Positions 3,380-57,345 of a DNA stretch of 64,000 nucleotides are shown here, in pieces; the first letter of the stretch is position 1, and each line of letters begins with the position of its first letter. Position numbers and translations under genes: made by a program. The notes below the pieces were generated by a model. It did not search any database. It was not told the origin of the DNA and worked only from the letters and a program-made list of their open reading frames with translations. Source of the DNA: Cymodocea nodosa (lineage: Eukaryota > Streptophyta > Magnoliopsida > Alismatales > Cymodoceaceae); contig CM072341.1 in NCBI GenBank assembly GCA_036874045.1, positions 14,954,501 to 15,018,500 of the forward strand, written 5' to 3'.

Positions 3380-3437
3380 ATGGACCATTTAGTAACAACA
3401 ACACAAGTGTCCCCAAGCAAAGACGATCAACGAAGCA

Positions 3438-7540: not shown

Positions 7541-8808
7541 ATGAATGGTATGGATGGTTTGGAATTGTTAAAGAATATGCTTGAGGAAGAAGAGGAAAAA
7601 GCAAAAAGACGGCGAATGTTACTTCTTTCATTGTGGAATTTCCTTGTAGGTGTTGCATGTATGTCAAGTACATTGACTAGTACTACACATTGCATTTATA
7701 GTAGAGAAAGACGTGACTACATTAGAAGATTATTAGATCCATCACTGCCACATCAAACATATAATTGTTGGAAGATATATAGAATGAGTCAACATGTATT
7801 CCTTGACTTTTGTAATTTGTTACGAAGAGAAGGTGGCATGGGAAATACAAGCAATGTTAGTGTCGAAGAGAAGTTTGTAATCTTTCTTGTCACTGTTGGT
7901 CAAAATCAACAATATGGAGTAACAAGGGGGTGTTTCTCTTGGTCTACATGGAATGTTAGTACATACTTCAATGAAGTACTTAATGCAATTTTGAACTTAC
8001 ATAAACAACTTCTTGCAATGCCTTTAGCATCAACTCCAAGTAGAATACTGAATGATTCCAATGTGTATCCTTATTTTAAGGTAAATATGTATTTTCATAT
8101 GGAATTGATTTGTACATTATTTTTTTCTCAATTTCTTATTCATATGTTAACATAATTGCATTGGTGTTATTGATGGAACATATATTAAGGCAACTATTTA
8201 TGGACGACAAATAGTAAGATTTAGAAATAGAAAAGGAGAGTTAAGTCAAAATGTTATGGCCACATGTAATCTTGATATGGAATTCACATATATTCATAGT
8301 GGTTGGGAAGGATCAGCTTTTGATGCAAGAATCCTTCAAGATGCTGTCACAAGACATCATCCATTCAAAGTTCCATTAGGTATGAAATGACATTATTGAA
8401 TATATATTTTTTATTTATACTAATTTTTAATTATATACAGGAAAGTTTTACTTGGTTGATGCTGGTTATTCTAATCGACTTGAATTTATTTATCCATATC
8501 GAGGAGTGAGATATCATCTATCTGAATATGAAAATAATAGACTTTTAAAAAATGCAGTTGAAAACTTCAATTATAGACATTTATAATTAAGGTCGATGAT
8601 TGAGTGATCATTTGGAGTTGTTAAACATCGTTTTGCAATATTACAAGGACATATAACGTATCCTTATGATACACAAACGAAGATTGTGATGGCTTACTTC
8701 CTACTACATAATTTTATACATAGAATTGACAAAGTAGATTTATTAGAAGATCAGTTAGCTAAATTTGATCTGGAAAATGAAGAAATTGGAATTACTGAAG
8801 ATGAGCTT
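7541..8808 (+). pseudogene. Harbinger 1 transposase (HARBI1/DDE_Tnp_4 type), decayed
   Basis: The cut-and-paste transposase of a PIF/Harbinger DNA transposon. The N-terminal region (read IYRMSQHVFLDFCNLLRREG) resembles the helical domain before the nuclease. Catalytic residues are traceable: first Asp in GVIDGTYIKA (codon 8172-8174), second Asp in LVDAGYSN (8458-8460) and the Glu at 8602-8604. Two introns are inferred, about 8079-8153 (the AG acceptor looks lost) and about 8381-8440. In-frame stops occur at about 8586 (TAA for CAA) and 8605 (TGA directly after the catalytic Glu). The coding stretch ends at 8808, where an Athila-type LTR starts with its TG, so the C-terminus is lost. Not functional. 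Confidence 0.85.
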
Positions 8809-9860
8809 TGTTTAGAATGAAAAGTGTATAATATTAATGGTTAAATGATAGTTAATTGCATAATATTTAGCTTATCATATGAGAATTAAGCCATTATGTT
8901 ATAATTACATTGTTATATGCTTTAATTAAAGAATCTGCTTAATTTTGGGGAATTAATGTTAATTTAGTACATTTCTGAACTGTCGGTAAGTTGCAGGCTA
9001 TGAAATTCTTAAGTATTCAAATTTTCTGATATTTCGGACAGTTATGTTTAACATACCGAACATGTATCGAATAATTATGTTTAAATTGCCGAACAGTTAT
9101 GTTTTAAAAGAATATTTTATTATTTCCTGAAGTACATGTGTCGAAACCATAATACATGACTTAAGTGAACTTTCGGTGAGTTATCTATAACTATCCGAAA
9201 TTGCAGTTGGGCATCGGATAGTTATATGTGTAACTCTCTGAAATCTCCTTTTATTTATAAAATAGCTGTGGACACGTGTTATGTTCTGAGAAAGTGACTT
9301 AAGTTATATATCGGTGAGTTATCTCTAACTATCCGAAATGCATCTAAGCATCGAATAGTTAGACCTATAACTCTCTGAAATGTTTCTTATATTATTAAAC
9401 TATTGCTGACACGTGTCGAGATCTGGTAGATTTACTTAAGTTATATATCGGTGAGTTATCTGTAACTATCTGAAATGCACCTGAGCATCGGATAGTTAAG
9501 TTGTAAGTATCCGAAATGCATCTGGGCATCGGATAGTTAAGTTTGTAAGTATCCGAAATGCATCTGAGCATCGGATAGTTAAATTTATGCACGTGTTTTA
9601 TAGTTAAATCAACGTAGCAAGTTCGTTGAGTTATCTGTAACTCCACGGACTATTTATTTTCTAACATGGCACTGTAGCGGTTGCAAAAACATGACAGTTG
9701 GAAGGAAAAATCACGATTGCACATATCGCGTAGGGAGAAGAAAGTATCGTCGTTGATATGAATGAAGTAAATCCAACCGACCATTCAAGCATAAGTAGTT
9801 ACCACTGAAGAAATATAAAAGAAAAGAAGAAAAAGAAGTAAATGGTGTGCGGCCGATGAG
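8809..9860 (+). mobile_element. Athila-type LTR, 5' portion only
   Basis: Begins TGTTTAGAATGAAAA exactly at the end of the Harbinger 1 coding stretch and follows the first 1.05 kb of the LTRs at 19527 and 50448. It stops at 9860, where the second long direct repeat starts, so the rest of the LTR and any internal region are absent. The fragment carries the hairpin and CACGTG module several times (8990-9660). A fossil inserted into another fossil. Confidence 0.85.
8990..9660. repeat. Hairpin/G-box module array in LTR fragment
   Basis: Repeated imperfect palindromes with arms of the form TCGGATAGTTA and TAACTCTCCGAAA or CGGTGAGTTA and TAACTATCCGAAA, loops of 4-8 bases, with CACGTG at 9273, 9410 and 9590 and ACTTAAGT shortly after some of the boxes. 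The composite unit is roughly 115-180 bases. The same module occurs in the Copia LTR at 55800-56780. Confidence 0.8.
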
Positions 9861-17211: not shown

Positions 17212-18075
17212 ATGGAGAAATTTTTAGAAACTGGTGATTTGATGGATCTTGAAGTTGAGGAATTTTTAAGTTACTTTTATTATTTTATGCATGCATAATA
17301 CAATTGTTGCAAACTTATAATTCAACCAAAACGCAACGAGTGCATAACATGCCTTATTCTGGAAAAGATGTTATTGACAACATGTTAGGAGGACATTGGA
17401 GGGTTTGTTTTGACATGTGTCGTATGATCCCATCCACTTTTATCACTTTGTGTCAAATATTGAGGTGGAAAAACCTTTTGGAGAATGGGAGGTGGGTTAC
17501 TGTTGAGGAGCAAGTGAAGATTTTTTTGCAAATAGTTGGGCATTGACATAAAAATAGAGTACTACAGAACTACCAACAACATTCTAGGGAAACAATTAGT
17601 CAATATGTTTATAACGTTTTAGATGCATTACTATTATGGGCACTTGAAGTTATTCAGCCTAAGGAATCTTTTAATGAAATACCACAATTTCTTAAGGACA
17701 ACCCTAGATTTATGTTATATTTCGAAGATGCAATAGGAGCACTTGATGGTACACATGTTCATTGTGTTAGGAAAAATAAACAAATCTCATTTAGATGTGG
17801 TAGACATGGCAAGTAGACAACTCAAAATGTATTGGGCATATGTGACTTCAATATGCGATTCATTTTTGCATCAACCTGGTGGGAGGGCATTGCACATGAT
17901 TGTCGAGTACTTAAGCATGCAATGTCTGATCCATGTCACAAATTTCCTAATTCACCTAAAGGTACTATATCTTCAATTTATTAAGAGCATTGTAAGTCTA
18001 CCTTGAACATATTTTTGAACTAATATTGTTGTCAAATTTATAAGTAAGTACTACTTGGTTGACTCTAGTTATAGA
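17212..18075 (+). pseudogene. Harbinger 2 transposase, decayed and 3'-truncated (left copy)
   Basis: HARBI1-type transposase. Start MEKFLETGDLMDLEVEEF at 17212, helical domain (read CRMIPSTFITLCQILRW) at 17416-17463, first catalytic Asp in GALDGTHVHC near 17745, second Asp in YYLVDSSY near 18062. The catalytic Glu is missing because the coding stretch ends where an Athila-type LTR begins (about 18075). In-frame stops include codons near 17297, 17545 (TGA where the B' copy has GGA) and 17814 (TAG where B' has CAG). An intron precedes the second Asp. Not functional; a frameless relic duplicated with block B. Confidence 0.85.
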
Positions 18076-19255
18076 AAATTTAATCACTTACAATCTTGCC
18101 TCTTCTCCCTATAGAATTGCGAACCAAGACTTGTAAGTTGATCTCCTCTTCAATATACTAGTATTAACCTGAAACCAAGGCTAGAAACTTTATGATCTCC
18201 TGAGATATAAGTCAGTGCTTAGTGAAAATGATTTCCTTCTTGTGACGTAATCACTCCTCACAGTGGTTGTCAATCACCGTGTTTGACTTAGAATCGACCT
18301 GACATCTAGAAAGTATCCTCACAGACCTCCGACGAATGGTAATTTTGGTGGTATTGTGGATCTTTAGGGAACTTCCGACGCTTATTGTAGTTAGTGCGAT
18401 TCTCCACATATTCTTCATCTTTCTCCTCTTCTTTTATATTTCTTTCAGTAGTAATTGTTTCTGCTTAATTGATCGATTGGATTTTCTTCATTCATATCAG
18501 CGATGGTGATTTCTTCTTCATTCTATGAGTTAATTCTTGCGTGATACGTGCAATCATTGCTTTCCTTCGAATTTCCTATTTCTACAACTACTATAGTGGT
18601 ATTTTAGAAAATAAATGGTCCGTGGAGTTAGTGTAACTTAACAGACTTACTTTGTTAATTTAACAAAACCACACATGTAGTAAAGAAATAACTTAACTAG
18701 TTCAAATGTTTTGGATAGTTATAACTATAAGTATCCAAAACTTATATGCATTTCAGATAGTTAGTACCTAACCTTTCGAAAGATAATTTAAGTCAAGTTT
18801 CCAGATCGTGACACGTGTCCTCGGGAAGTTTTATGATAAGAAGATATTTCGGATACTTACAAACCTAACTATCCGATGTTCAGACAAATTTTCGATAGTT
18901 ACCAGATAACTTACCAAAAATTCACTTAAGTCATGTATTAAGGTTACAACACGTGTACTCTAAGAAATAATAAAATATTCTTTAAGCTTTTAAAACATAA
19001 CTGTCTAGTACATGAAATGTAACTCTTTGAAATAATAGAAAATTCAGATACTTAGGAATTAAAAAGTCTATAACTCACCGATAGTTTGAAAATGTACTTA
19101 ATTAATACTACTTCCCTACAATTATGTAGATTCTTTCATTAAGGCATATAATAGTGTAATTATAAAATAATGACTTAATCTCATATGATAAACTAAATAT
19201 TATGCAATTAATCATTATTTAACCGTTAATATTATGCACTTTTTCATTCTAAACA
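18076..19255 (-). mobile_element. Athila-type LTR fragment, reversed
   Basis: Read on the minus strand it starts TGTTTAGAATG at 19255 and follows the first 1.18 kb of the LTR family, ending inside the Harbinger 2 coding stretch. It is head to head with the LTR at 19527, at roughly 80-85 percent identity. CACGTG boxes and hairpins are present (18700-19080). No internal region is attached. A fossil. Confidence 0.85.
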
Positions 19256-19526
19256 ATTAGCATCAATTTGTACTTACGAATGAATTTGGGTGTCAAATAG
19301 TTATTTTTTGGTAATGGTTGGTTTTACTAGGTGGTTCAATCTTGGTTAATTTCCTTGTGTGTTTAATATAGAATGAGGAAAGTTTACTTATGTAAATTGC
19401 TAGTGATTAATACCTGATGTTTTTTGATAATGGTTGTATTTTTACTTAGGTTTGAATTTAAGATCAATTGTATTATGTACTCTCTTTTTTTGGAATGTGT
19501 GTTTCTTGAATCTATGTTATACTACT
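19256..19526. other. 271-bp spacer between head-to-head LTRs
   Basis: AT-rich, no open frame, not part of either LTR. It is the loop of the long inverted repeat and is nearly unchanged at 50177-50447. Confidence 0.7.
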
Positions 19527-21798
19527 TGTTTAGAATGAAAAAATGCATATTATTAACGGTTAAATGATGGTTAATTGCATAATATTTAGCTTATCATATG
19601 AGAATTAAGCCATTATGTTATAATTGCATTGTTATAAGCTTTAATTAAAGAATTTGCTTAATTTGAGGGAATTAATGTTAATTTAGTACATTTCTGAATT
19701 GTCGGTAAGTTGCAGGCTGTGAAATTCTTAAGTATCCAAATTTTCTGATATTTCGGACAGTTATGTTTAACATACCGAACATATTTCGAACAGTTACGTT
19801 TAACATATCGAACATGTATCAGATAGTTATGTTTTAAACTGCTGAACAATTATGTTTTTAAAGAATAGTTTATTATTTCCTGAAGTACACGTGTCAAAAC
19901 CATAATGCATGACTTAAGTGAACTTTTAGTGAGTTATCTATAACTATCCGAAATTGCAGCTGGGCATCAGATAGTTATATGTGTAACTCTCCGAAATATC
20001 CTTTTATTTATAAAATAGCTGTGGACAAGTGTTATGTTCTAGGAAAGTGACTTAAGTGGATTTTCGGTGAGTTATCTATAACAATCCGAAATGCATCTGA
20101 GCATCAGATAGTTAAACTTGTAACTCTCCGAAATGTTTCTTTTATTATTAAACTGTTGTTGACACGTGTCGAGATTTGGTAGATTTACTTAAGTTATATA
20201 TCGGTGAGTTATCTGTAACTATCTGAAATGCATTTGAGCATCGGATAGTTAAGTTTATAAGTATCCGAAATGCACCTGAGCATCGGATAGTTAAATTTAT
20301 GCTTGTGCTTTATAGTTAAATCAACGAAGCAAGTCCGTTGAGTTATCTGTAACTTCACAGACTATTTATTTTGTAATATGCCATTGTAGTGGTTGCAGAA
20401 ACAGGACTGTTGGAAGAAAAACCACAATTGCACGTATCACGCAGGAATTCACTCGTCGAAGGGAGAAGAAATCATCGTCGTTGATATGAATGAAGGAAAT
20501 CCAACCGACCATCCAAGCAAAAGCAGTTACCACTGAAGAAACATAAAAGAAAAGAAGAAAAAGAAGTAAAGTGTGTGTGATCGATGGGTATGGCCAGTGT
20601 TTATAGAGGAGGAGCACCGAACTTTCTGTAGATAGTATCGGTAATTCTTTGAAGTACCACACCAACCATCATTACCACCACCATAACCATCATAATCACC
20701 AACCATCGGAGGTCTGTGAGGATACTTTCCTAATGTCGGGTCGATTCCAAGCCAAACACAGTGCTTGAAAACCATTGTAAGGAGTGATTGCGTTGCAGGA
20801 AGGGAAGCCATTTTCACTAAGTGTCGACTCATATTTCAAGAGATCGTAAAGCTTTTAGCATTGGTTTTGGGTTGATGCCTGTATGTTGAAGAGGAGATCA
20901 TTTTGCAATTCTGGACTCGCGATTCTATAGGGAGAGGAGACAGAATTGTAAGTGGTTTAATTTTCAGTGGTATAATCGCGTCGTATGTAGTGACAGAAGT
21001 ATTTACTTTTGATTGAGATTACTTTACATTTCACCTTTCGCCCATTTCCATGTTCATATTAAAACAAAAATACCAAAAAAATAACTTATATGTGTTTGTA
21101 TTTTGTATTTGAGTATTGTATTGTTTGTGTTGTATCATGATTAATGTTATCTTTGTTAGTGTTGTAATTGTTTTATTTTTGTTTTAGTTTTACAGTTGAC
21201 TGAAATTAGTTCGTTTAAAAGACTTAAAGATTTTAATGGTTATTGTTTGAATTATCTGAATGTTAGTATTGCCTAATTATAAATCCAGTGTTTACTAACA
21301 TTAAAGAGTTTAATTGATGTTATTTACAATCTATGGAACCGCCCAATGGTTGGCCGAATTCCTCTGTAAATAACAGTATTAAAAAGAAAAGACGGGCTCA
21401 TGGAGTTAACTTAAGTCCACAAGGTTAGTCCGTTGAGTTAACCATAACTCAACGAACTTTGTCCGTTAAGTTAATTGTAACTCAATGGAGGACTTATTGA
21501 AGATATAAATTTGATTGTTAACAAATGGAACAGTTCTCAATTCTTAAGAAATTCTTTGTGGGATCGACCTGTACTTGCACACTAATACAATAGACACTGT
21601 GCACTTGTATTTAAAATACAAATTGGAATTAATATCTAACTTGTATTAAAGGTTATTTGTTTACTTCTATATAAAAAAAAAGAATAGGCATAAAGATAAA
21701 TTAACTAAGTAAAATCAGAAGTTAACAAATCCAAGTTTTTCTAGTGCGTTGCTGGAGATCCAAACTAGTTTTCTAGTGTCGTGCTGGATAATCAAACA
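19527..21798 (+). mobile_element. 5' LTR of Athila-like Gypsy element, copy 1
   Basis: Starts TGTTTAGAATG and ends AATCAAACA, 2.27 kb. A primer-binding site follows after seven bases. It contains the hairpin and CACGTG module array at 19690-20350 and a second group of short inverted repeats around 21420-21490 (arms CCGTTGAGTTA and TAACTCAACG). The partner in B' is 50448-52708. The 3' LTR is not in the window. Confidence 0.85.
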
Positions 21799-25252: not shown

Positions 25253-25310
25253 ATGAACCATTTAGTAACAACAACACAAGTGTCCCCAAGCAAAGACGAT
25301 CAACGAAGCA

Positions 25311-26858
25311 ATGGAAACGGTCGTCTTGTTTTGGAGCTTATCCGCGTGCCTCCTCGTCTCCCTTGTCCTCACTCCCTACCTGTCATCGTTGCTGAAGCGT
25401 GGGAGACTGCCACCGGGCCCCTTCCCACTCCCTGTCGTGGGCAATCTCCTCGAAGTGCACGGCATGCCCCATCGCTGCTTCACCGAACTTGCAAAGACCC
25501 ATGGACCTCTCATGACTCTCCAGCTCGGGCGTCTCACCGCCGTCGTGATCTCTTCGGCTGATGTTGCAAGAGAAGCCCTTGTGAAAAACGACCTCGCCCT
25601 CTCTGGTCGATCTATTCCAGACTGCTTCCGGGTGCATCATCATGACGAGGTATCGGTTGTGTTGCTTCCAACCACGCAGTTGTGGAGGGACCTACGCCGT
25701 TTCTACAACACGGAGCTCTTTACTCCACACAAACTCGACGCCAGCGCTTCCTTGAGGCTTCGGAAGGTGAGGGAGCTCTTGCAGTTCATAGGCCGATGTT
25801 GCGATGCCGGTACGTCGGTGGATATTGGACAAGCGGCGTTCACGACCGCCCTCAACCTGATAACGAACGTGGTCTTCTCCACCGATTTGACCAACTTCAA
25901 CTCCGATAGCTCTCTGGAGTTCAAGGACTTGGTATGGAACATTTTGGAAGTAGGAGGGAAGCCGAACATCACAGACTTCTTCCCAGTTATTAGGTTCATG
26001 GACCCACAAGGCTATAGACGTCGGCAGAGGAAACAGTTAAAGCAGTTGCGGGATATGTTCGATAAAATCATCGCAGAACGGCGGAGGTCGACGATGGGCG
26101 GCAGCACCACGTACACCGACGTTTTGGATGCCTTCCTCGGATCTAAATTTGATCAACAAACAATCATATCTGGAATCACTGTAACCATTCAAATTGTCCT
26201 TGATTCGCATGATACAACAAATTGTAATATATCTAAATTTTTGCAGGACATGTTTTTAGCAGGAAGTGACACTAGCACGACCACGGTTGAATGGGCAATG
26301 GCATTGTTGTTGCGAAATCCTGAGGCGATGAGAAAGAGTCGAACAGAGCTTGCCAACGCCATGCCCATGGAGAAGGAGGTAGAGGAGTCGGACATCGCAC
26401 GGCTCCCATACCTGCAAGCTATTGTGAAAGAGACGCTACGGTTGCACCCTCCCCTACCACTCCTCGTGCCACACAGGGCAGAACGGAGCACTGGGCTGTG
26501 CGGTTACACCGTGCCCACACATAGCCAGGTGCTCGTCAACGCTTGGGCAATCGGCCGTGACCCTTCGAGGTGGACCGATCCTGAGTCCTTCCGCCCGGAG
26601 AGGTTCTTGCAGGGAGATCAGCATGTCGACTTTCGGGGTCGGGACTTCGAGCTCATACCCTTCGGTTCTGGGCGTCGGATTTGTCCCGGGTTGCCTCTGG
26701 CAAATCGAATGGTCCACCTCATGCTTGCTTCTCTTCTTCGATCTTATGACTGGAAGCAACCGGATGGAAAGACGCCAAGCGAGCTGGACATGACGGAGAA
26801 GGTGGGTGGGACCATGCGTTTGGCCACGCCGCTCATGGCCGTGCCGATCAAATATTAA
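25311..26858 (+). CDS. Cytochrome P450, CYP76 family, copy 2 (intronless, 515 aa)
   Basis: Same length and architecture as copy 1: membrane anchor 4-27, PPGPFPLP 34-41, AGSDTS 317-322, ExxR E374/R377, PERF 429-432, haem Cys 458. By my count it differs from copy 1 at 19 residues. The first 165 codons are identical, 12 differences fall between residues 166 and 255, and 7 are scattered in the last half. This copy keeps prolines at 218 (KPN) and 232 (DPQG), expected in CYP76 proteins, so it is the better candidate for the ancestral activity. Substrate unknown; likely ER-bound oxidase of a terpenoid or related small molecule. Confidence 0.9.
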   Translation: METVVLFWSLSACLLVSLVLTPYLSSLLKRGRLPPGPFPLPVVGNLLEVHGMPHRCFTELAKTHGPLMTLQLGRLTAVVISSADVAREALVKNDLALSGRSIPDCFRVHHHDEVSVVLLPTTQLWRDLRRFYNTELFTPHKLDASASLRLRKVRELLQFIGRCCDAGTSVDIGQAAFTTALNLITNVVFSTDLTNFNSDSSLEFKDLVWNILEVGGKPNITDFFPVIRFMDPQGYRRRQRKQLKQLRDMFDKIIAERRRSTMGGSTTYTDVLDAFLGSKFDQQTIISGITVTIQIVLDSHDTTNCNISKFLQDMFLAGSDTSTTTVEWAMALLLRNPEAMRKSRTELANAMPMEKEVEESDIARLPYLQAIVKETLRLHPPLPLLVPHRAERSTGLCGYTVPTHSQVLVNAWAIGRDPSRWTDPESFRPERFLQGDQHVDFRGRDFELIPFGSGRRICPGLPLANRMVHLMLASLLRSYDWKQPDGKTPSELDMTEKVGGTMRLATPLMAVPIKY

Positions 26859-28515: not shown

Positions 28516-29029
28516 GTTGATGATAATATTTTTATGGTTCGAATATAAAGAATAATCATGGTCAAAATAATCATATTAAAATATTAATGCTACAAATTCT
28601 AATTATTTAAAATATAAGTCACTAAGTATTATATAAAAATATAAAGTTAAAATACATATATAATGATCAGACAAATAATAATAAGTTTATAGGTGTGTCT
28701 CTCTACGAGTCGACATGTTCCATTTTTTGTAGAGAGGTGTGTTGGTAGAGGAGGACATTGGTCTACATCTATAAATATTGGGACATCTATTTTAGTGTTT
28801 TCCTTCTCCCTCATTTTTTGCATTGACAATACTCTATTTCTCACAATTTAACTCTTGTTAAACATAAAAAAATAATGTCTGATGGAGTTTCTATTCTTCA
28901 AAAAAGTTAAAGAATCTATAAAAGAAAGTTTCATAATAAAAGAAGGGACATACAGAGATTCTTCTCTTCTCTTCCTTTCATCTCTTCTTTTTTATTTGTT
29001 TTCCTTTCTATTAGTTCGAGTAAAATATA

Positions 29030-29660
29030 GAGAATATAGGTGTTATTCAAGTACTATTTTCTAATATTTTATGTATTTTTTATAATTCTTATTTTGTAAA
29101 ATAGAGTGAAGATAAGTGTCATTCAAGCACTATCTCTCAATATTTTATCTATTTTTCATAATTCTTCCTTTGTAAAATATAGGGAAGATGGAAGTCATGT
29201 GAGTACTCTCTCAATATTTTACATATTTTTCATAATTCTTTCTTTATAAAATATAGTAAAGATGGGTGTTGTTCAAGTACTATTTTCTAATATGTTACAT
29301 ATTTTCGTAATACTTCTATAAATTATATGGAAGATGAATGCCACTCAAGTGTTATTTTTCAATATTTTACATATTTTCTTCTCTTATAAAATATAAAGAA
29401 GATGGGTGTTGATTGAGTGTTATCTTCTAATCTTTTACATATATTTTATAATTCTTCTCTTATAAAATAGAGGGAAGATGGGCACCGATCAAGTGCAATC
29501 TCCTGTAATTTCTAAATAATAGGTTATAAGAAAGGTGAACATCGATAGAGTCATCCCCTTCCCTTTGTTTTCTTGAATTTCTAAAAGAATTATGAAGCAA
29601 GAAAATAATATGGGGAAGGTGGGCACAGACGGAGTTATCTTCGTTCAAATATTTTCTCAC
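29030..29660. repeat. About 75-bp minisatellite, 7-8 units
   Basis: Degenerate units of the type AAATATAGGGAAGATGGGTG, then TTCAAGTACTATTTTCTAATATTTTACATA in two parts, with key phrases near 29047, 29124, 29201, 29273, 29345, 29415 and 29489. Period 70-77 bases. The last units are more diverged. Confidence 0.8.
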
Positions 29661-44370: not shown

Positions 44371-45218
44371 TAATGTATTTTAAGAGTTTAATGATGACAT
44401 AATTGAAATATTTAAATTATTTTGCATGACTTAGGCAATTGATAGAACGTGCATGATAATTGTGCTAGAAACAGAAAATTTACATAAATTACACCATAGT
44501 ATAAAACCACATTTTAATTGAAACATTATAATTTCATGATGTAGATGCCATCATATCATTGGCTTTATTTTCATTATAACCTTGACCTTAATGCTTTATC
44601 ACAAGGAAAACAATTTTGTGGGCTTCTCATATAAAAGGGGATGAGGGCACAAGCTCCTCCCCCTCTTTTTGGGATTTCTTTTCTCCACTTCGGTCATCAC
44701 TTGCTAGGGCATCAAGGTCTCGAAGGCGTCTCCTCCCCCTTCTCCGATGTGGCCTCTTAGTACGTGGAGGAAGCTCATGGCATGCCTTTCTTTCTTTGCT
44801 TCTTGGTGTCCCATGCGTGGATCGAGCTCACAGGTTCTCTCCTTCAAGCTTTGGTGGCATTGTGCAAGTGTTGCTGCCCTCTCCAATGTGTGCAACTAAG
44901 GATGGGTTTGGTAGAGGAGCTAGAGCACACCTTTACGTTGGAACATGTGTCAAGAGCACACTTTAAACAAATAGTCTAGCTCTTCATCGATGTCAGAAGC
45001 ACTAGAACTACAACGACGACCAACAAAGCATATTTTTAGACGTTGTATTTTCCCAACTCCAACAAGGCATCAACGATTGAAAGTCTAGAATACTCTCGTC
45101 ACCTCCACACCCCTAAACAATGACTCTACAACTTTCACCCTAAACAATGCCTCCGTCGATCTGCAATAGAGTAAGCTCCTCTTTCACCTTCGTTGATCTC
45201 CATCGATCTAGTTTTTTC

Positions 45219-45405
45219 TTTTGTCGATCTGCAACCATTATATATTTGAAGTTTCTTTTGTCGATCTACGACCATCGTATATTTGAAGCTTCTTTTGTCG
45301 ATCTACGACCATCGTATATTTGAAGCTTCTTTTGTCAATTTGCGACCATTGTATATTTTAAAAGCTTCTTTTGTCGATCTGCGACTATCGTATATTTTAG
45401 CTTTC
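45219..45405. repeat. 37-bp tandem repeat, 5 units (B' copy)
   Basis: Same five units as 16093-16280, with a few base differences. Three consecutive units here read TTTGTCGATCTACGACC or close to it, so the B' array is slightly more uniform. Confidence 0.9.
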
Positions 45406-46297: not shown

Positions 46298-48985
46298 ATG
46301 GAGAAATTTTTAGAAACTAGTGATTTGATGGATCTTGAAGTTGAGGAATTTTTGAGTTACTTTTATTGTTTTATGTATACATAATACAATTGTTGCAAAC
46401 TTATAATTCAACCAAAAGGCAACGAGTGCATAGCATGCCTTATTCTGGAAAAGATGTTATTGACAATATGTTAGGAGGACATTAGAGGGTTTGTTTTGAC
46501 ATGTGTCGTATGATCCCATCCACTTTTATCACTTTGTGTCAAATATTGAGGGGGAAAAACCTTTTGGAGAATGGGAGGTGGGTTACTGTTGAGGAGCAAG
46601 TGAAGATTTTTTTGCAAACAGTTGGGCATGGACATAAAAATAGAGTACTACAGAACTACCAACAACATTCTAGGGAAACAATTAGTAAATATGTTTATAA
46701 AGTTTTAGATGCATTATTATTATGGGCACTTGAAGTTATTCAGCCTAAGGAATCTTTTAATGAAATACCACAATTTCTTAAGGACAACCCTAGATTTATG
46801 TTATATTTCGAAGATGCAATAGGAGCGTGTTCGTGTTTTCCCAACACTACACTAGAAAAACTTGGATTTGTTACTTCTATTTTTACTTAATTAATTTATC
46901 TTTATGTCTATTCTTTCTTTTAGAAGTAAACAAACAACCTTTAATACAATTTAGATATTAATTCCAATTTGTACTTTAACTGCAAGTGCACAGTGTCTAT
47001 TGTATCAGTGTGCAAGTACATGTCGATTGTATCCCACAAGGAATTGTTGACGAATTTAAGAAATGTTTGATTGTGAACAATTCAAATTTATATTCAATAA
47101 GCACTCCGTTGAGTTACAGTTAACTCAACGGACTAAGTTCGTTGAGTTATGGATAACTCAACGGACTATCCTCGTGGACTTAAGTTAACTCCACGAGCTT
47201 GTCTCTTCTTTATAATATTGCTAATTACAGAGGAATTCGGCCAACCATTGGGTGATTCCATAGATTGTAAATAACATCAATTAAGCTTTTTTTAATGCTA
47301 GTTAACATTGGATTTATCATTATGCAATACTAACATTCAGATGATTCAAACAGTAACCATTAAAATCTTTAAGTTGTTTTGTACGAACCAATTTCAGTAA
47401 ACTGTAAAATTAAAACTAACATAAAACAATCATAAAATTGATACAGATAACATTAATCACGATACAATACCAACAATACAACACTCAAATACAACATACA
47501 AACAAAGATAAATTGTTTTGATGTAATGGGCGAAAGGTGAAATGTAAAGTAATTTCACTTGACAGTAAATACTTTCGACACTACTTGCAACGCGATTACA
47601 CCACTGAAAATTGAACCACTTACAATTCTGTCTCCTCTCCCTATAGAATCGCGAGTTTAGAATTACAAGATGATCTCCTCTTCAGCATGCAGGCATCAAC
47701 CCGAAGCCAAGGCTAAAAGCTTTACGATCTCCTGAAATATGAGTCGGTGCTTGGTGAAAATGTCTTCCCTTCCCGCGACGTGATCACTCCTCATAGTGGT
47801 TGTCAGACACTATGTTTGGCTCGGAATCGACCCGACATCAGGCAAGTATCCTTACAGACCTCCGATGATTGGTGATTATGGTGGTGCTACGATGGTTGGT
47901 GTGATACTTCGGAGAATCGCCGATATTATCTGCAGAAAGCTTGGTGCTCCTCCTTTGTATACACTGGTCGTCCATCGATCACACTCTTTCTTTTTTTTCT
48001 TCTTTTCTTTTATATTTCTTCAGTGGTAACTGCTTCTGCTTGAATGGTCAGTTGGATTTCCTTCCTTCAGATCAACGGTGATGATTTCTTTCTCCCTGCG
48101 TGATACGTGCAAACATGGTTTTTCCTTCCAACTGTCTATTCCTACAACCGCTACAGTGGCATATTAGAAAATATGTAGTCCGTGGAGTTATAGATAACTC
48201 AACGGACTTCCTTTGTTGAATTAACTATAAAACATGTGCAAAAATAACAACTTAAGTTTATAACGCTAACCTAACGCGTTGCCTTAGTGTATTTTCATGT
48301 AACTCAACACGTGCAGTTATACTAACTTAACGAGTTATAACGTAAGTAAATCTACCAGCTCTCAACACGTGTCAGCAACAGTTTAAACATAAAATAACAT
48401 TCCGGAGAGTTACAGGTATAACTATCCGATGCTCAGATGCATTTTCGGATACTTAAGAATTTCACAACCTACAATTTACCGACAATTCATAAATGTACTA
48501 AATTAACATTAATTCCCCAAAATTAAGCAGATTCTTCAATTAAAGCATATAACAGTGCAATTATAACATAATGGCTTAATTCTCATATGATAAGCTAAAT
48601 ATTTTGCAATTAACCATCATTTAACCGTTAATATTATGCACTTTTTCATTCTAAACAGAATGCTTGATGGTACACATGTTCATTGTGTTAGGAAAAATAA
48701 ACAAATCTCATTTAGATGTGGTAGACATGGCAAGCAGACAACTCAAAATGTATTGGGCATATGTGACTTCAATATGCGATTCATTTTTGCATCAGCTAGG
48801 TGGAAGGGCATTGCACATGATTGTCGAGTACTTAAGCATGCAATGTCTGATCCATGTCACAAATTTCCTAATTCACCTAAAGGTACTATATCTTCAATTT
48901 ATTAAGAGCATTTTAAGTCTACCTTGAACATATTTTTAAACTAATATTGTTGTCAAATTTATAGGTAAGTACTACTTGGTTGACT
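46298..48985 (+). pseudogene. Harbinger 2 transposase (B' copy), split by a solo LTR
   Basis: Same gene as 17212-18075. The first part runs 46298-46827 and the second 48663-48985; between them lies the solo LTR, which entered just before the codons of the first catalytic Asp. Stops differ between the copies: here a TAG replaces the Trp codon near 46484, while the codons at the 17545 and 17814 positions remain open. The catalytic Glu is missing as in the left copy. Confidence 0.85.
46828..48657 (-). mobile_element. Solo LTR of the Athila-like family inside Harbinger 2
   Basis: Begins TGTTCGTGTT and ends CTAAACA on the plus strand, 1,830 bases. Read on the minus strand it follows the LTR family (start TGTTTAGAATG) to its end. 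The flanking five bases are GAGCG and GAATG, against GAGCA at the unoccupied site in block B, so a target duplication is plausible but imperfect. It carries very regular hairpins at 47106-47131 and 47140-47163 and CACGTG boxes near 48307 and 48365. Absent from block B. Confidence 0.85.
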
Positions 48986-50176
48986 CTAGCTATAGAAAAT
49001 TTAATCACTTACAATCTTGCCTCTTCTCCCTATAGAATTGCAAACCAAGACTTGTAAGTTGATCTCCTCTTCAATATACTAGCATTAACTTGAAACCAAG
49101 GCTAGAAACTTTATAATCTCCTGAGATATGAGTCAGTGCTTAGTGAAAATGATTTCCTTCTTGTGACGTGATCACTCCTCACAGTGGTTGTCAATCACCG
49201 TGTTTGACTTAGAATCGACCTAACATCTAAAAAGTATCCTCATAGACCTTTGATGAATGGTAATTTTGGTGGTATTATGGATCTTTAGGGAACTTCCGAT
49301 GCTTATTGCAGTTAGTGCGATTCTCCACATATTCTTCGTCTTTCTCCTCTTCTTTTATATTTCTTTCAGTAGTAACTGTTTCTGCTTAATTGATCGATTG
49401 GATTTTCTTCATTTATATCAACGATGGTGATTTCTTCTTCATTCCATGAGTTAATTCTTGCGTGATACATGCAATCATTGCTTTCCTTCGAATTTCCTAT
49501 TTCTACAACTACTATAGTGGTATTTTAGAAAATAAATGGTCCGTGGAGTTAGTGTAACTTAACAGACTTACTTTGTTAATTTAACAAAACCACACGTGTA
49601 GTAAAGAAATAACTTAACGAGTTCAAATGTTTCAGATAGTTATAACTATAAGTATCCAAAACTTATATGCATTTCAGATAGTTAGTACCTAACCTTTCGA
49701 AAGATAACTTAAGTCAAGTTTCCAGATCGTGACACGTGTCCTCGGGAAGTTTTATGATAAGAAGATATTTCGGATACTTACAAACCTAACTATCCGATGT
49801 TCAGAAAAATTTTGGATAGTTACCAGATAACTTGCCAAAAATTCACATAAGTCATGTATTAAGGTTACAACACGTGTACTCTAAGAAATAATAAAATATT
49901 CTTTAAGCTTTTAAAACATAACTATCTAGTACATGAAATGTAACTCTCTAAAATAATAGAAAATTCAGATACTTAGGAATTAAAAAGCCTATAACTCAAC
50001 GATAGTTTGAAAATGTACTTAATTAATACTAATTCCCTAAAATTATGTAGATTCTTTCATTAAGGCATATAATAGTGTAATTATAAAATAATGACTTAAT
50101 CTCATATGATAAGCTAAATATTATGCAATTAACCATTATTTAACCGTTAATATTATGCACTTTTTTATTCTAAACA
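48986..50176 (-). mobile_element. Athila-type LTR fragment, reversed (B' copy)
   Basis: Counterpart of 18076-19255, ending CTAAACA at 50176. Head to head with the LTR starting at 50448. Confidence 0.85.
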
Positions 50177-50447
50177 ATTAGCATCAATTTGTACTTACGA
50201 ATGAATTTGGGTGTCAAATAGTTATTTTTTGGTAATGGTTGGTTTTACTAGGTGGTTCAATCTTGGTTAATTTCCTTGTGTGTTTAATATAGAATGAGGA
50301 AAGTTTACTTATGTAAATTGCTAGTGATTAATACTTGATGTTTTTTGATAATGGTTGTATTTTTACTTAGGTTTGAATTTAAGATCAATTGTATTATGTA
50401 CTCTCTTTTTTTGGAATGTGTGTTTCTTGAATCTATGTTATACTACT
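50177..50447. other. 271-bp spacer between head-to-head LTRs (B' copy)
   Basis: Counterpart of 19256-19526, same length. Confidence 0.7.
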
Positions 50448-52708
50448 TGTTTAGAATGAAAAAGTGCATATTATTAACGGTTAAATGATGGTTAATTGCA
50501 TAATATTTAGCTTATCATATGAGAATTAAGCCATTATGTTATAATTGCACTGTTATAAGCTTTAATTAAAGAATTTGCTTAATTTGAGGGAATTAATGTT
50601 AATTTAGTACATTTCTAAATTGTCGATAAGTTGCAAGCTGTGAAATTCTTAAGTATCCAAATTTTCTGATATTTTGGACAATTATGTTTAACATACCGAA
50701 CATATTTTAGACAGTTATGTTTAACATACCGAACATGTATCGTATAGTTATGTTTTAAATTACCGAAAAATTATCTTTTTAAAGAATAATTTATTATTTT
50801 CTGAAGTACACGTGTCAAAACCATAACACATGACTTAAGTGAACTTTTAGTGAGTTATTTATAACTATTCGAAATTGCAGCTAGGCATCAGATAGTTATA
50901 TGTGTAACTCTCCGAAATATCCTTTTATTTATGAAATAGCTGTGGACAAGTGTTATGTTCTAGGAAAGTGACTTAAGTGGATTTTCGGTGAGTTATCTAT
51001 AACTATCCGAAATGCATCTAAGCATCAGATAGTTAGACTTGTAACTCTCCGAAATGTTTCTTTTATTATTAAACTGTTGTTGACACGTGTCGAGATTTGG
51101 TAGATTTACTTAAGTTATATATCGGTGAGTTATTTGTAACTATCTTAAATGCATTTGAGTATTGGATAGTTAAGTTTATAAGTATCCGAAATACACCTGA
51201 GCATCGAATAGTTAAATTTATGCTTGTGTTTTATAGTTAAATCAACGAAGCAAGTCCGTTGAGTAATCTGTAACTCTACGGACTATTTATTTTCTAATAT
51301 GCCATTGTAGTAGTTGTAGAAACAGGACAGTTGGAAGAAAAACGTATCACGCAGGAATTCACTTGTCGAAGGGAGAAGAAATCATCGTCGTTGATATGAA
51401 TGAAGGAAATCCAACTGACCATTCAAGCAGAAGCAGTTACCACTGAAGAAACATAAAAGAAAAGAAGAAAAAGAAGTAAAGTGTGTGTGATCGATGGGTA
51501 TGGCTAGTGTTTACAGAGGAGGAGCATCGAACTTTCTGCAGATAGTATCGGCAATTCTCTGAAGTACCACACCAACCATCATTACCACCACCATAACCAT
51601 CATAATCACCAACTATCGGAGGTCTGTGAGGATACTTTCCTAATGTCGGGTCGATTCCAAGCCAAACGTAGTGCTTGAAAACCATTGTAAGGAGTGATCG
51701 CGTCGCAGGAAGGGAAGTCATTTTCACCTAGTGCCGACTCATATTTCAAGAGATCGTAAAGCTTCTAGCCTTAGTTTTAGGTTGATGCCTGTATGCTGAA
51801 GAGGAGATTATTTTGCAATTCTGGACTCGCGATTCTATAGGGAGAGGAGATAGAATTGTAAGTGGTTTAATTTTCAATGGTGTAATCGCGTCGTATGTAG
51901 TGACGGAAGTATTTACTATCGATTGAGACTACTTTACATTTCACTTTTCGCCCATTTCCATGTTCATATTAAAACAAAAATACCAAAAAAACAACTTATC
52001 TGTGTTTGTATTTTGTATTTGAGTGTTGTATTATTTGTGTTGTATCGTGATTAATGTTATCTTTGTTAGTGTTGTGATTGTTTTATGTTTGTTTTAGTTT
52101 TACAGTTTACTGAAATTAGTTCGTTTAAAAGACTTAAAGATTTTAATGGTTACTATTTGAATTATCTGAATGTTAGTATTGCCTAATGATAAATCCAGTG
52201 CTTACTAACATTAAAGAGCTTAATTGATGTTATTTACAATCTATGGAACCACCCAATGGTTGGCTGAATTCCTTTGTAAATAGCAGTATTAAAAAGAAAA
52301 GACGGGCTCATGGAGTTAACTTAAGTCCACAAGGTTAGTCCGTTGAATTAACCATAACTCAACGAACTTTGTCCGTTAAGTTAATTGTAACTCAACGAAG
52401 GGCTTATTAAAGATATAAATTTGATTATTAACAAACAGAACAGTTCTCAATTCTTAAGCAATTCTCTATGGGATCGACCTGTACTTGCACACTAATACAA
52501 TAGACACTGTGCACTTGTAGTTAAAATACAAATTGGAATTAATATCTAACTTGTATTAAAGGTTATTTGTTTACTTCTATATAAAAAAAAAGAATAGGCA
52601 TAAAGATAAATTAACTAAGTAAAATCAGAAGTTAACAAATCCAAGTTTTTCTAGTGCGTTGCTGGAGATCCAAACTAGTTTTCTAATGTCGTGCTGGGTA
52701 ATCAAACA
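50448..52708 (+). mobile_element. 5' LTR of Athila-like Gypsy element, B' copy
   Basis: TG...CA ends, 2.26 kb, with the hairpin/G-box array at 50630-51290 and short inverted repeats near 52320-52400. Compared with 19527-21798 it differs by a few percent. Confidence 0.85.
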
Positions 52709-52715
52709 AGTTTTA

Positions 52716-52733
52716 TGGTGCCGCTACCGGGTA
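52716..52733 (+). other. Primer-binding site of Athila-like element, B' copy
   Basis: TGGTGCCGCTACCGGGTA, seven bases after the LTR end. Close to the tRNA-Asp type site usual in Athila/Tat elements. Confidence 0.8.
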
Positions 52734-52789
52734 ATTGAATTAATATAAGCAACTGTTAGAGCTATTTCATTTTAATAGCTAGAGTGTTG

Positions 52790-55128
52790 TGTGTTTTCTT
52801 TTGTGATTGAGAATATGGCATATGCTTATGCTCAAAGACTTTTGAAATCTGTAGTTAGCATATGTGAATTCTACAATTCTAAAGGACATGACATTTCTGA
52901 CTATTTGAAATTGAGACGTTTGCAGATGGTTAGATCCCATGAACAACAAATGAATTATCCTTAGTGTAATAGAGCCGAGTATGAGAATCCTATAGTTTAC
53001 CTAACTGATGGTTAGTATAGAATGTGTAATATGTTAAGAGACACTGAAGTTTGGGATAGGTATGACAGATTGGAGCGTAGTATAGAGCAAAACCTAGATA
53101 AACTAGAATACTTTATGTGTCAACAACAAGAAGTCAACCAATTAAACTATAAGGAAGCATATTCAGAACCTAAAAAGGATATAATTACGAAATTGAAAAA
53201 ACCATAATGAAAATTGATCAAAAATTGAATGCAATGAGATTAGATGATCTGGAAAGAAAACTAAAAGCATTGGACGAATATATAATGAAAATACAAGTTA
53301 TGCAACAGGACAATGAAAATTGTAACGTTATAGACCTACATAATTTGCAAAATATACAGCAAATAGAAAATATTAATGCAAGAGAAATTAAAGAATGCAC
53401 TTTAAAACTAAAAACAATTGAAGATCATAATCATGAAAATGATATACAAAAACATCATGAGAGTAATGAAAATCTGGAAGATGTTTATGTAACATTAAGA
53501 TCTGGAACTGATATACCACCAAGAACTCAAAATGAAAATAATATGAAGTTGGATAAGAGTAAAAATCAAAATGATAATGAAAATGTAATAGCTGAAAATC
53601 TAGAAATCACTAAAGAACAATCTGAATCTGCTAATAAAGCTAAAAGTGATCAAACAAATCAACTGAAAGAAAAAGAATCTTTTAAATCACAATCTTTAGC
53701 ACCCTATCCTGAAAGATTACAACAAACAATACCTGAAAAATAAGAAAACATTAGAGAAATTTTTGAAAAAGTACAAGTTAACATTTGTTTGCTAGATCTA
53801 TTGCAGAAAATGCCACCTTATGCTAAATTTCTGAAGGATTGATGTACTAAGAAAAGAGAGCGAAAAGTTCTTAGAAAGGTATTTTTAGCTGAGCAAAGTA
53901 GTTCCCTATTTCTGCCACAAATTCTTAAAAAGTTATCTGATCCTGGAATCTCTGTTATATCATGCACAATAGGAAATACCATTCTAGAAAGAACCTTAAT
54001 AGACTTAGGTGCATGTATAAATGTTATGCCAAGTGATATATTTGCATCCTTAGGATTAGAAGGCTTAACTCCTACTAGTACAGTTATTCAATTAGCTGAT
54101 AGAAGTATAAGATATCCTAGAGGAAAAATAGAGGATGTTTTAATTAAAATCAAAAACTTTATATATCCTATTGATATTGTAATTTTGGATTCCCAACAAA
54201 TTAAGCATAAAAATAGTGATACATCTTTAATTTTGGGAATACCATTTTTAGCAACATCAAGGGATGTTATAAATTGTAAAACTGGAGTAATGAAGTTAGC
54301 ATATGGTAATGAGGATACTCAATTAAATATTTTCAAACCAGAAAGGTTTGAGGAGTTAGAAATGTCCTTACATACCATAGACTTTTTAGAGGATGAAGGA
54401 GATATGTTAGATGATGTGATTCAAGAAGAATTAAATAGGTAAATCAATTATGAAACTTTAGAGGAAAGTGAAAGCATAAATATAGAAGGAGATGAGGAAG
54501 AAATTAATTTAGAAAATGATGATATTCAATTAGGAGCTCTAGCTTCTGATGGGCAACATTTAGAATTAAAACCTTTACCTCTTGAATTTACCTATATATT
54601 TTTGGAAGAGAAACGAACCTATCCAATCATTATTGCTTCAGATTTAAAAGAAGATCAAATAGCTAAATTAATAGATGTAGTGAAAAGTTATAAAGAATCA
54701 ATAGGATGGACTATGATTGATATAAAAGGGTTAAGTTCAACTTTATGTTGTCACCACATATATTTAGAAGAGAATGCCAAACCTGTTAGAATTCCTGAGA
54801 GGAGATTAAATCCAAATCTTAAATAAGTAGTCAGAAGGAAATAGTGAAATGTTTAGATATTGATAGAATTTATCTGATTTCTAATAGCTCGTGGGTTACC
54901 CCAATTCATGTAGTTCCCAAGAAATCAGGATTAACAATTATTAGGAATGAAAGTCAAGACTTGATACCTACTAGAATTCAATCAGGCTGGAGAGTATATA
55001 TAGACTATAGAAAGTTGAATGCTGTGACTAGGAAAGATCATTTTTCCTTACATTTTATAGATCAAATGTTGGAAAGATTAGCAAGGCAAGAATATTTTTG
55101 TTTCCTAGACGAGTATTCAGGTTATAAT
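52790..55128 (+). mobile_element. Internal region (gag, protease, start of reverse transcriptase) of Athila-like element
   Basis: Gag-like part 52810-53900, aspartic protease about 53950-54330 (LIDLGA, then QLADRSIRYPRGKIEDVL and ILGIPFLA), linker, then the start of reverse transcriptase (PIHVVPKKSGLT, YIDYRKLNAVTRKDHF, CFLDEYSGYN). These phrases are characteristic of the Athila branch of Ty3/Gypsy. The element is broken in several places. It ends at 55128, where the Copia element has inserted; its remaining part would lie beyond that element, outside the window. Confidence 0.85.
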
Positions 55129-56951
55129 TGTTAGGATTAGTAGGCTCACTAGAGGAGGGGTGAATGGTGAAAGTGTGTAGTTTTTTAAAATTCTTTTGAT
55201 GTTGAATCGAATGATTCAATAGAAATGTAATGAGATAAAATTAAATGAATGCAAATCAGTAGAGACAAGAAACACACAGCAAAATTTTAGGTGGTTCACC
55301 AACTTGGCTAGTCCACCCCCAAGATTCACTTGGGCTTCACTAAGTGTTTCAACACTTACACACTTGCATTCAGGTCAAAGCAAAAACCAACTACATAGAA
55401 GTTTTCAGGTATAAACTTCAGTAAACCAACCTCTAAAGTTTTCAAGTCGAAACTCAAACCAACACTGAATGTAGCTTTTAGGTTAAAGACAAGAACCAAC
55501 AGCTTTAATCTTTCAATCAGAGTTTTGGCGCATAGAGCTTTTTCTGCAGTAGATCTTTAGAATATACTTCACTGTTTGCAGACTTGAGTGTAATTGGAAT
55601 TGGAGTGTAGCTCATTGTATGTGGTATATTCGTTATCTCTGTATTTTTCTTACTTAAACTCCTCATATTTATACCAAAGGTATAACGATCATATTTCTCT
55701 ATCAACGGATGTATTCTACTGTACTTGATTAGACACCAATCAAATATGGTAAGTTACCATTTAGAAAGTTATTTCAAGATGTCTTACTGATTTTCCTAAC
55801 CTTTCGGATAGTTAGCAGTGTAACTCTCTGAAGAATATCTGTAACTCACTGAAAGATCACTTAAACCTTTCTGCCAAGTAGGATTCCAGAATATTTACTG
55901 TGAGCTGTCATTCAATCGGATACTTATAATTGTAACTCACCGAACAGTTATATAACTGTTGAATAGTTGGCTACAATAACCCTTTGTTAACTTTCCGATT
56001 ACTTCAATTCAGCATGTGTATAAAAGGCTGACTTAAGTTTCAGATGGTTATCCCTGTAACTCACCGAAACGCTTTAGGATTTCGGATAGTTATCTTTCTA
56101 ACTCTTTGAAAACTTATTTTAGCTTCTCTTTGGAATTCTACACGTGGGAAATTCAATGGCTTAAGTTTCGGATGGTTAAACTATAACTCACCGAAACTCT
56201 TTTGAAATTTCGGATAGTTATCTTTCTAACTCTCCGAAAACTTAAATGATCTTCTTTCTAGAATCCTACATGTGGCAATTTCAATAACTTAAGTTTCGGA
56301 TAGTTAAACTGTAACTTACCGAAACTCTCTTTGAAATTTCGGATAGTTATTTAACTCTTCGATTTTCCCTTTTAAGCTTTCAACTGTCGGCTTCTCCATT
56401 TTGCACGTGCGTAATAAGATGACTTAAGTTCTGGAAAGTTATACTTGTAACCTACCGAAAAACTCGAATAGTTATCTAACTCTCCAAAAAGAAAACTCGG
56501 ATAGTTATCTAACTCTCCGACAAGTCCTTTAAGCTTCTGTTCTATATTTCTGCACATGATTTATTGAATGACTTAAGTTTTGGATAGTTAGCCTTTCTAA
56601 CTTTCCGATTTGCCTTTTTCTTTCGGATAGTTAACTTCTTAACTCTCCGATCATTCAACCAACTTAACTGTTCAATTATTTAACTCTCTGAAGGCTTTGA
56701 AATGTTATGATAATTATCCTTCTAACTGTCCGATAGTCTTGCTGCTGTTTTACTCTTCGGATACTTGGACCTGTAACTGTCTGATTTTCCTGTAGCTTTA
56801 AGGCAATATCTTTTAGAACTTCCTCCATCTGTTCGTCTGTTTGGAATTTGTTCTATCTACCTTCTGATCTAATGCTGCTCTAACTTAACTATGAAATACA
56901 ATATGTTTCCTCACATAGGTTTTGCATTATCCAAATACTAGGGTCCTAACA
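55129..56951 (-). mobile_element. 3' LTR of Sirevirus-like Copia element
   Basis: TGTTAGGATT...CCTAACA, 1.82 kb; on the minus strand it starts TGTTAGGACC directly after a polypurine tract. It is flanked at 55124-55128 by ATAAT, the presumed target duplication, whose partner is outside the window. The outer 470 bases differ from the visible part of the 5' LTR (63532-64000) at about 24 positions, roughly 5 percent, which suggests an age of about two million years at a grass-like rate of 1.3e-8 per site per year. Confidence 0.9.
55800..56780. repeat. Hairpin/G-box module array in Copia LTR
   Basis: Seven or more imperfect palindromes with arms TTTCGGATAGTTA and TAACTCTCCGAAA or TAACTCACCGAAA and loops of 4-7 bases, arranged with ACTTAAGT and CACGTG (56141, 56404) or CATGTG (about 56270) in units of about 125-130 bases. 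It matches the module of the Athila-type LTRs in order and strand, except that the inner arms of the first hairpin are swapped. Confidence 0.85.
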
Positions 56952-56975
56952 ATCTCCTCCTTTTTGATAATGACA
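56952..56975 (-). other. Polypurine tract of Copia element
   Basis: Minus strand AAAAAGGAGGAGAT directly before the LTR start TGTTAGG. Confidence 0.8.
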
Positions 56976-57345
56976 AAATCCTTTATATTAAATTACATGT
57001 ATTTCACTCCCTAGTATATTTCTATACATTCAGTCACATAGAGAACCAAATAAACAGGAATTTATCAAGACTATATTGACGTGGAGGGATTCCTCCCCCT
57101 AACTTTGTGTTGTCTTCTCCCCCTATCTGTGTGTTGAGTTTTTCTTCACCTCTTTTAATAATTCTCTTTCAGTTCTTGCTGAAAATACTGTAAGGGATGT
57201 ATACTTTACTAATTTCCAAAATCTTCTCCCCCTTTTTGTCATTATATAAAAAGTTGAGGATAGTAAAACTGATATTGAATACATCCTGCACGAGTAAGTT
57301 AGCAGAAAAATAAGCTCCCATATGGTGAGCTTGATGAAAAAATAT

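Follow-up and report, generated by a model that had tools for sequence, protein, structure and literature searches.

An array of paired short words in the LTRs of Copia and Gypsy retrotransposons of one plant genome, with probable exchange of array blocks between the superfamilies

In this analysis, the hairpin and G-box module found in a 64,000-nucleotide window (the whole stretch of DNA analysed, C13:14954501-15018500 of a 374.6-Mb plant assembly, which was the genome searched) is best explained as an array of paired short words in the LTRs of at least four retrotransposon families. Blocks of this array have moved between Gypsy and Copia elements, probably by recombination, and its words are predicted sites for the same host transcription factors; we give this reading a probability of roughly 0.6. 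The families are SIRE1 and SIRE2 (Sirevirus-type Copia), COP3 (a Copia family without Sirevirus marks), and ATH (Athila-like Gypsy). The words are CACGTG, which is the G-box, CTTAAG, and paired half-sites, all predicted to be sites of bZIP/bHLH- and MYB-like factors.

An earlier note on this window had described a unit of these words in LTRs of two unrelated lineages, and its account of the words, with their order and spacing, is confirmed. CACGTG occurs 26 times in the window, against a mean of 3.64 and a maximum of 8 in shuffled sequence, and ACTTAAGT 22 times, against a mean of 1.64 and a maximum of 4, and the 11.5 kb of LTR sequence in the window holds 16 of the former and 19 of the latter. 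Across the genome, the pattern CACGTG-N6-30-ACTTAAGT gave 25,476 matches versus 56 for the reversed control, and the second hairpin gave 3,456 versus none. The window shuffles and the genome counts against controls thus rule out chance words as the source of the module, and the similarity stands far above the chance level of short palindromic words that the note had named as a refuting outcome. A scan for near-perfect hairpins (arms of 11 bases, one mismatch) proved a poor detector here, with 14 of its 34 window matches falling in the two LTR families.

Copies for the family comparisons were chosen by the far LTR end rather than by the module, and were taken from the roughly 40 best-scored matches of each family search, so that the sample consists of close relatives of the query copies; the first look returned 6,663 ATH, 3,391 SIRE1, and 890 COP3 candidates (not confirmed copies), 40 of each being scored. 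Among copies picked in this way, the array is present in 15 of 15 SIRE1 pieces, each with at least one CACGTG/CTTAAG pair, and, with paired half-sites, in 13 of 13 informative ATH LTRs, 11 of which hold the exact CACGTG-18-ACTTAAG pair. The remaining five of the 18 ATH pieces fetched (L032, L040, L045, L046, and L047) end before the array. The presence of the module in most family members, which the note had raised, is therefore borne out for the sampled copies that reach the array. The LTRs themselves proved longer than first drawn: the Copia 3′ LTR spans about 55129-56951, and that of Gypsy copy C about 50448-52676. The window's Copia element, SIRE1, shows the following features:

About 55129..56951, minus strand: 3′ LTR of SIRE1, Sirevirus-type Ty1/copia, TGTTAGG...CCTAACA, placed by the polypurine tract/LTR junction, the C-rich LTR 3′ end, and the partner LTR.
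55797..56783, minus strand: SIRE1 array of paired half-sites, with CTTAAG at 56032, 56160, 56288, 56423, and 56572 and CACGTG at 56141 and 56404.
55666..55673, minus strand: TATA-like box TATAAATA downstream of the array, placed by sequence, an arrangement as described for Sireviruses in PMC2829016.

Several Sirevirus marks accompany this LTR, including multiple polypurine tracts (repeated GGGGGAG at 56951-57240, minus strand), a partner LTR that ends at about 63532 with CCTAACA followed by TGGTATCAGAGC (63529-63518) at the 5′ LTR/internal junction, and a C-rich end (CACCCC... near the LTR end). At least eight CGG-CCG palindromes, as in Sirevirus RM boxes, lie in the first part of the LTR before the TATA box, though their arms are mostly imperfect, and the element encodes Copia-type RVT_2, Pol_BBD, and gag_pre-integrs domains. 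The LTR pair has diverged by K = 0.082, or about 3 million years at an assumed rate of 1.3e-8 per site and year. Elsewhere, a diverged SIRE1-like LTR in which the gap from CTTAAG to CACGTG is only 9 bases was seen at L084 1375-1395 and L085 1181-1201, cut off beside ATH sequence.

The ATH family has five copies in the window, of which A, B, and C lie on the plus strand and D and E on the minus strand:

About 50448..52676, plus strand: 5′ LTR of ATH copy C, Ty3/gypsy, with a PBS-like stretch at 52716.
50809..51280, plus strand: array of copy C, with CACGTG at 50809 and 51084, CTTAAG at 50834, 50972, and 51109, paired half-sites, and a period of about 137 bp.
52716..52737, plus strand: PBS-like stretch of element C, placed by sequence.
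53843..54442, plus strand: aspartic protease ORF of element C (Pfam Asp_protease_2, E 1.6e-4, 22.7 bits, under the curated cut-off of 24.3).
9160..9647, plus strand: array of copy A (LTR 8809-9858, truncated).
19888..20345, plus strand: array of copy B (LTR starts at 19527).
48992..50184, minus strand: copy E, an old, diverged ATH LTR with its array at about 49542-49992 and a duplicate at 18071-19263.
46828..48657, minus strand: solo LTR D of the ATH family, with an empty site at 17740/17741 in the duplicated region.

Only one of the two duplicates carries solo LTR D, whose insertion therefore probably postdates the duplication. The PBS-like stretch of element C is, we take it, akin to Athila/Tat primer sites, and the family is presumably Athila-like, a name given on resemblance. 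Its Ty3/gypsy nature is seen in L030, the continuation of the ATH copy in L026, where RVT_1, RT_RNaseH, Integrase_H2C2, and rve follow the order RT-RNase H-integrase. No homologue named by lineage was found among the listed matches of the ATH reverse transcriptase (120 of 7,995), and the Athila ORF-1 domain (pfam03078) was not matched in three post-integrase ORFs of ATH, a domain reported in only 16% of Athila elements in the account given in PMC6317226. Past the array of copy C, TATAAA was first found about 1.1 kb away. ATH LTRs also contain, outside the main array (window 52330-52400 and 48177-48208), a second kind of pair of the CGTTGAGTTA type, and a similar dialect occurs in the SIRE2 array. 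Beyond the elements, the window holds duplications of 96-98% identity (1223-6462/23115-28346, 10763-17740/39870-46826, and 17742-23117/48663-54027), on which lie two cytochrome P450 genes (3396-4985 and 25269-26858); the one at 3396-4985 resembles geraniol 8-hydroxylase/CYP76, the best ordinary-length match among those listed being 55% identical (Magnolia sinica). Short tandem repeats with periods of 37 bp and about 76 bp were seen at 16053-16274, 45178-45399, and 29005-29482, and an ORF at 7529-8155 may encode a Harbinger-type transposon protein.

The other two families were reached through irregular members of the module. COP3 (L017, L025, and L020), found via hairpins with odd loops, has a polymerase fragment 29% identical to its SIRE1 counterpart, and its LTR consists of half-site pairs and CTTAAG, with exact CACGTG in none of 20 copies examined. 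CTTAAG with half-sites was found in 16 of 17 COP3 copies picked by the other LTR end, the exception (L064) having two half-sites only, and TATA boxes lie past the array in the three copies mapped that far. SIRE2 (L081, L009, L082, L016, and L027), a second Sirevirus-type LTR family, was reached via pairs with a gap of 11 in the spacing list; two GGGGGAG tracts precede the L081 LTR, a tRNA-Met-like PBS AGTGGTATTAGAGC follows the 5′ LTR of L027, and its gag is related to that of SIRE1 (42.5% identical over 214 aa). In L016 (2946-4472), COP3-like LTR sequence precedes the SIRE2 LTR, apparently a nesting of two array-bearing families.

Along transcription, the SIRE1 and ATH arrays are mirror images of each other. 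Read in the direction of transcription, all 28 ATH pairs lying within 60 bases have the start of CTTAAG 25 bases after CACGTG, and 44 of 45 SIRE1 pairs have it 19 bases ahead of CACGTG (21 ATH and 16 SIRE1 pieces, window copies and the five short ATH pieces included). The note had reported the same order and strand for both lineages; this holds in window coordinates and fails along transcription, the apparent agreement having arisen because the Copia element (minus) and Gypsy copies A, B, and C (plus) lie on opposite window strands. Its observation that the inner arms of the first hairpin are swapped between Gypsy and Copia was correct. In two-hairpin runs of ATH, a TGA-type half-site opens the first hairpin in 38 of 41 and an AGA-type half-site closes the second in 24 of 41, while in SIRE1, scored by order alone, the TGA type stands in the second hairpin in at least 44 of 74 runs and the AGA type in the first in at least 60 of 74. 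Spacings agree in part: the hairpin-to-hairpin gap is 16-17 in both families (SIRE1 has 18 as well), and from hairpin to G-box ATH has gaps of 32 (15 cases) or 34 (6) and SIRE1 gaps of 32-33 (21) or 42 (12). In the mirrored frame, the commonest gap is 19 (ATH) versus 13 (SIRE1) from G-box to CTTAAG and 8 versus 3 from CTTAAG to half-site.

The depth of this likeness was assessed with nulls that preserve the words, using 36 copy pairs (six chosen copies of each family). Antisense, the SIRE1-ATH score was 52.0, compared with 48.4 after shuffling spacers (36% of nulls reached the observed score) and 29.6 after permuting words and spacers (2.2%); in the same sense, the corresponding values were 44.0, 39.0 (27%), and 28.9 (5%). 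Spacer homology was not detectable among these pairs, and on this alignment evidence SIRE1 and ATH have words, order, and some spacings in common, with the signal located in words and order. Same-sense homology was considered as well and is not supported: in the copy pairs tried, alignments in both senses beat Markov nulls, and the word-preserving null again leaves the signal in words and order. In comparisons with COP3 (18 pairs each), the sense score was 41.8 for ATH-COP3 (38.7, 33% with spacers shuffled; 28.1, 3.3% with words and spacers permuted) and 54.6 for SIRE1-COP3 (45.5, 8.9%; 35.7, 0.8%), and no spacer homology was detectable between ATH and COP3 over whole arrays. The commonest gap from CTTAAG to half-site is nevertheless 8 in both COP3 (36 cases, next commonest 2) and ATH (36, next 5); its spacer reads TGGATTTT in 7 of 35 ATH cases and TGGATCTT or TGGATTTT in 22 of 38 COP3 cases, with TGGATYTT as the common form.

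Between SIRE2 and ATH, the likeness includes the spacers, and an exchange of LTR array blocks between these Copia and Gypsy families is supported. A block matching SIRE2 is already present in the window:

48233..48337, minus strand: 105-bp block in solo LTR D matching the SIRE2 array at 84.8%, with its right junction at a shared CACRTG word.

Five ATH LTRs carry the block in the same sense over 104-105 bp (D 84.8%, L015 95.2%, L003 85.7%, L004 83.8%, and L083 98.1%), and lower or shorter matches occur in L002/L012, L017, L021, L024, L027, L039, and L085. It was found in all 11 SIRE2 copies examined that reach it and in one of the 13 informative ATH pieces (L039). The note's proposal that lineages had exchanged LTR sequence is thus upheld for SIRE2 and ATH and has no detectable sequence-level counterpart between SIRE1 and ATH. 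In D, L003, and L015, the block sits between ACTTAAGTTATA (ACTTACGTTATA in D and L003) and the TGCACRTG of the ATH array, with the right crossover inside the shared G-box word; in L083, about 260 bp of the ATH array are replaced by two SIRE2 pieces, with the right crossover in a shared half-site. The right junction therefore lies inside a short shared word in four of the chimeric copies read; in L021, L027, and L085, the bases to the right of the block match neither parent and no word marks the junction.

In all, 685 genome copies (control, none) share one exact 26-base junction, SIRE2 on the left and ATH on the right, and the full block was read in three copies with this junction (D, L003, and L015). 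Among the first 100 of the 685 places, compared by position alone, both members share a strand in 20 of the 21 junction pairs separated by 10-17 kb (shuffled strands: mean 10.3, largest 17 of 2,000), 19 of the 20 same-strand pairs being 12.5-13.4 or 14.2-15.0 kb apart and one 16.3 kb. By position, chimeric LTRs thus stand at both ends of elements, as the two LTRs of full-length copies would, and the chimeric LTR has very likely been copied by retrotransposition; this speaks for later replication rather than for the first event. The L083 block resembles SIRE2 copies most closely (99% to L089), which makes this transfer, seen at one locus, a recent one from SIRE2 to ATH. For D, L003, L004, L015, and others, the closest blocks are either one another's or those of both groups. 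The blocks of L017 and L024 are more diverged, and the first transfer between ATH and SIRE2 is therefore older.

Many SIRE2 LTRs additionally hold an extra unit that reads as an antisense ATH unit, with a gap of 18, ATH-like spacers, and, along about 100-143 bp, an identity of 70-77%. Its score against ATH (16 ATH copies; tested after BLAST had shown the match) exceeded all 1,600 spacer-shuffled nulls, and spacers added nothing when the unit was compared with ATH antisense, SIRE1 antisense, or SIRE1 sense (50%, 45%, and 79% of nulls). An exact spacer of this unit has 1,068 genome copies (control, none), with six of six sampled copies inside SIRE2 LTRs. The unit is bordered by a 14-17-base repeat of SIRE2 sequence and is absent from copies L009 and L082; it may be a gain from ATH or have dropped out of some copies. 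The unit links ATH with a Sirevirus array, and the mirrored orientation is that seen between ATH and SIRE1.

These results have to be weighed against convergence, in which each lineage would have built its array independently, through tandem duplication of sites for the same host factors, with exchange as a side show. Undetectable spacer homology for SIRE1-ATH, for ATH-COP3 over whole arrays, and for the SIRE2 unit against SIRE1 means that convergence fits those pairs too, and it would suit a SIRE1-ATH likeness confined to words and order, a mirrored unit, and several differing gaps; Sireviruses of other plants are described in PMC2829016 as having CGG-CCG palindromes of their own. It would, however, require several coincidences to yield the same cyclic order, the hairpin gap of 16-17, and one shared hairpin-to-G-box gap, and spacer-inclusive exchange is seen between SIRE2 and ATH, so that we consider it unlikely as the general account while keeping it as the strongest rival. 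For SIRE1 and ATH, we favour an exchange far in the past, followed by turnover of the spacers. Nested insertion or misassembly could in principle also create chimeric LTRs, and nesting is common here, as in the COP3-like sequence before the SIRE2 LTR of L016; in the copies read, however, the block replaces array sequence without donor LTR ends, and the exact junction recurs at hundreds of places in pairs that fit the two LTRs of one element, which leaves this explanation very little room. A regulatory cassette captured from a host gene by several families independently, as the note had suggested, would agree with the resemblance of the words to plant regulatory sites, but all 18 inspected hairpin matches (7 SIRE1-type, 8 ATH, and 3 COP3, a small sample from one contig, some hand-picked for odd loops) lie inside LTRs, and a host origin finds no support and seems scarcely credible.

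A different kind of alternative, proposed for maize Sireviruses, is that the host notices the arrays, or that they persist, because stems in their transcript would feed small-RNA silencing. All four units folded better than the mean shuffle (z -2.0, -5.5, -5.6, and -3.4), which makes an RNA by-product such as small RNAs plausible, and small RNAs are reported to pile up on palindrome-rich maize Sirevirus LTRs (PMC5311732, PMC10760457, as far as these sources describe them). Identical CGGATAGTTA arms occur at 1,102 places genome-wide, and COP3 arms show a small excess of co-variation (1 of 300 shuffles). The hairpins of the note do have paired arms, but these are mostly imperfect, being identical in 0 of 102 ATH pairs, 1 of 220 SIRE1 pairs (16 copies), and 12 of 108 COP3 pairs; no co-variation was found in ATH or SIRE1 when right arms were dealt anew, for local or long pairing, and CACGTG and CTTAAG at fixed distances would be superfluous for a stem. 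Selected RNA stems are hence not supported in ATH or SIRE1, and silencing through stems appears an improbable reason for the arrays. As each side of a pair mostly keeps its own half-site type and the arms of these two families lack co-variation, two protein half-sites are favoured over a selected stem. Outside CpG, words vary slightly less than spacers in three families (0.073 vs 0.104, 0.124 vs 0.151, and 0.127 vs 0.149), a difference toward which the way of marking words is itself biased, and no such reduction is seen once CpG is counted.

Under the preferred reading, in which array blocks moved between Gypsy and Copia elements, CACGTG, CTTAAG, and the half-sites would bind host factors of the bZIP/bHLH and MYB-like kinds, and the array may work as an enhancer and hence tolerate inversion. 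Same-sense chimeras could arise by strand transfer during reverse transcription of co-packaged RNAs, mirrored units would need DNA-level recombination or repair, and the shared words would provide short homologies at which arrays can recombine. A bolder extension, to which we give somewhat less than even odds, is that the superfamilies use one interchangeable cis-regulatory language, in which dyad words would serve both as predicted switch sites and as recombination hinges, Copia and Gypsy elements would trade LTR cassettes in either orientation, and chimeric promoters would spread as new subfamilies.

LTR swapping in soybean, reportedly described by Du et al. in 2010, is said to involve an autonomous element and its own non-autonomous partner. 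Among known systems, the window's Copia LTR is of the same kind as the Sirevirus RM boxes of Bousios et al. (2010), described in PMC2829016 as a CGG-CCG dyad repeated many times in the first LTR part before the TATA box and called there Sirevirus-specific and absent from classic Ty1/copia elements. Unlike RM boxes as presented in that source, arrays of the same dyad words here also occur in a Ty3/gypsy and a non-Sirevirus Copia family, together with CTTAAG and, in all but COP3, CACGTG, each at a fixed distance. The palindrome of maize Copia elements and Helitrons (PMC10760457) is likewise an LTR palindrome found in two unrelated element types of one genome; in the account given there it is a motif count, whereas here Copia-Gypsy LTR junctions were read, one of them amplified. 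Recombinant Onsen LTRs (PMC5668417) and template-switch complexes (PMC1950507) are, as those sources describe them, chimeras from reverse-transcription recombination too, but they join members of one family or highly similar elements, while the present ones join different superfamilies. Among the titles and abstract openings listed in searches of the open-licence PMC literature, none described LTR arrays passing between Copia and Gypsy elements. Sirevirus arrays and chimeric LTRs are thus known kinds, and an array common to Copia and Gypsy elements with an amplified cross-superfamily chimera appears new.

Retrotransposon families are usually treated as separate lines with independently evolving promoters. 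Since the words, the junctions, and the hundreds of copies all lie in one assembled genome, the claim made here is directly testable. Array pieces that cross between groups likely let unrelated elements answer the same predicted host switch proteins. If LTR control arrays do cross superfamilies, the success of one family in escaping or exploiting its host would be heritable by another, and activation and silencing may be shared among families.
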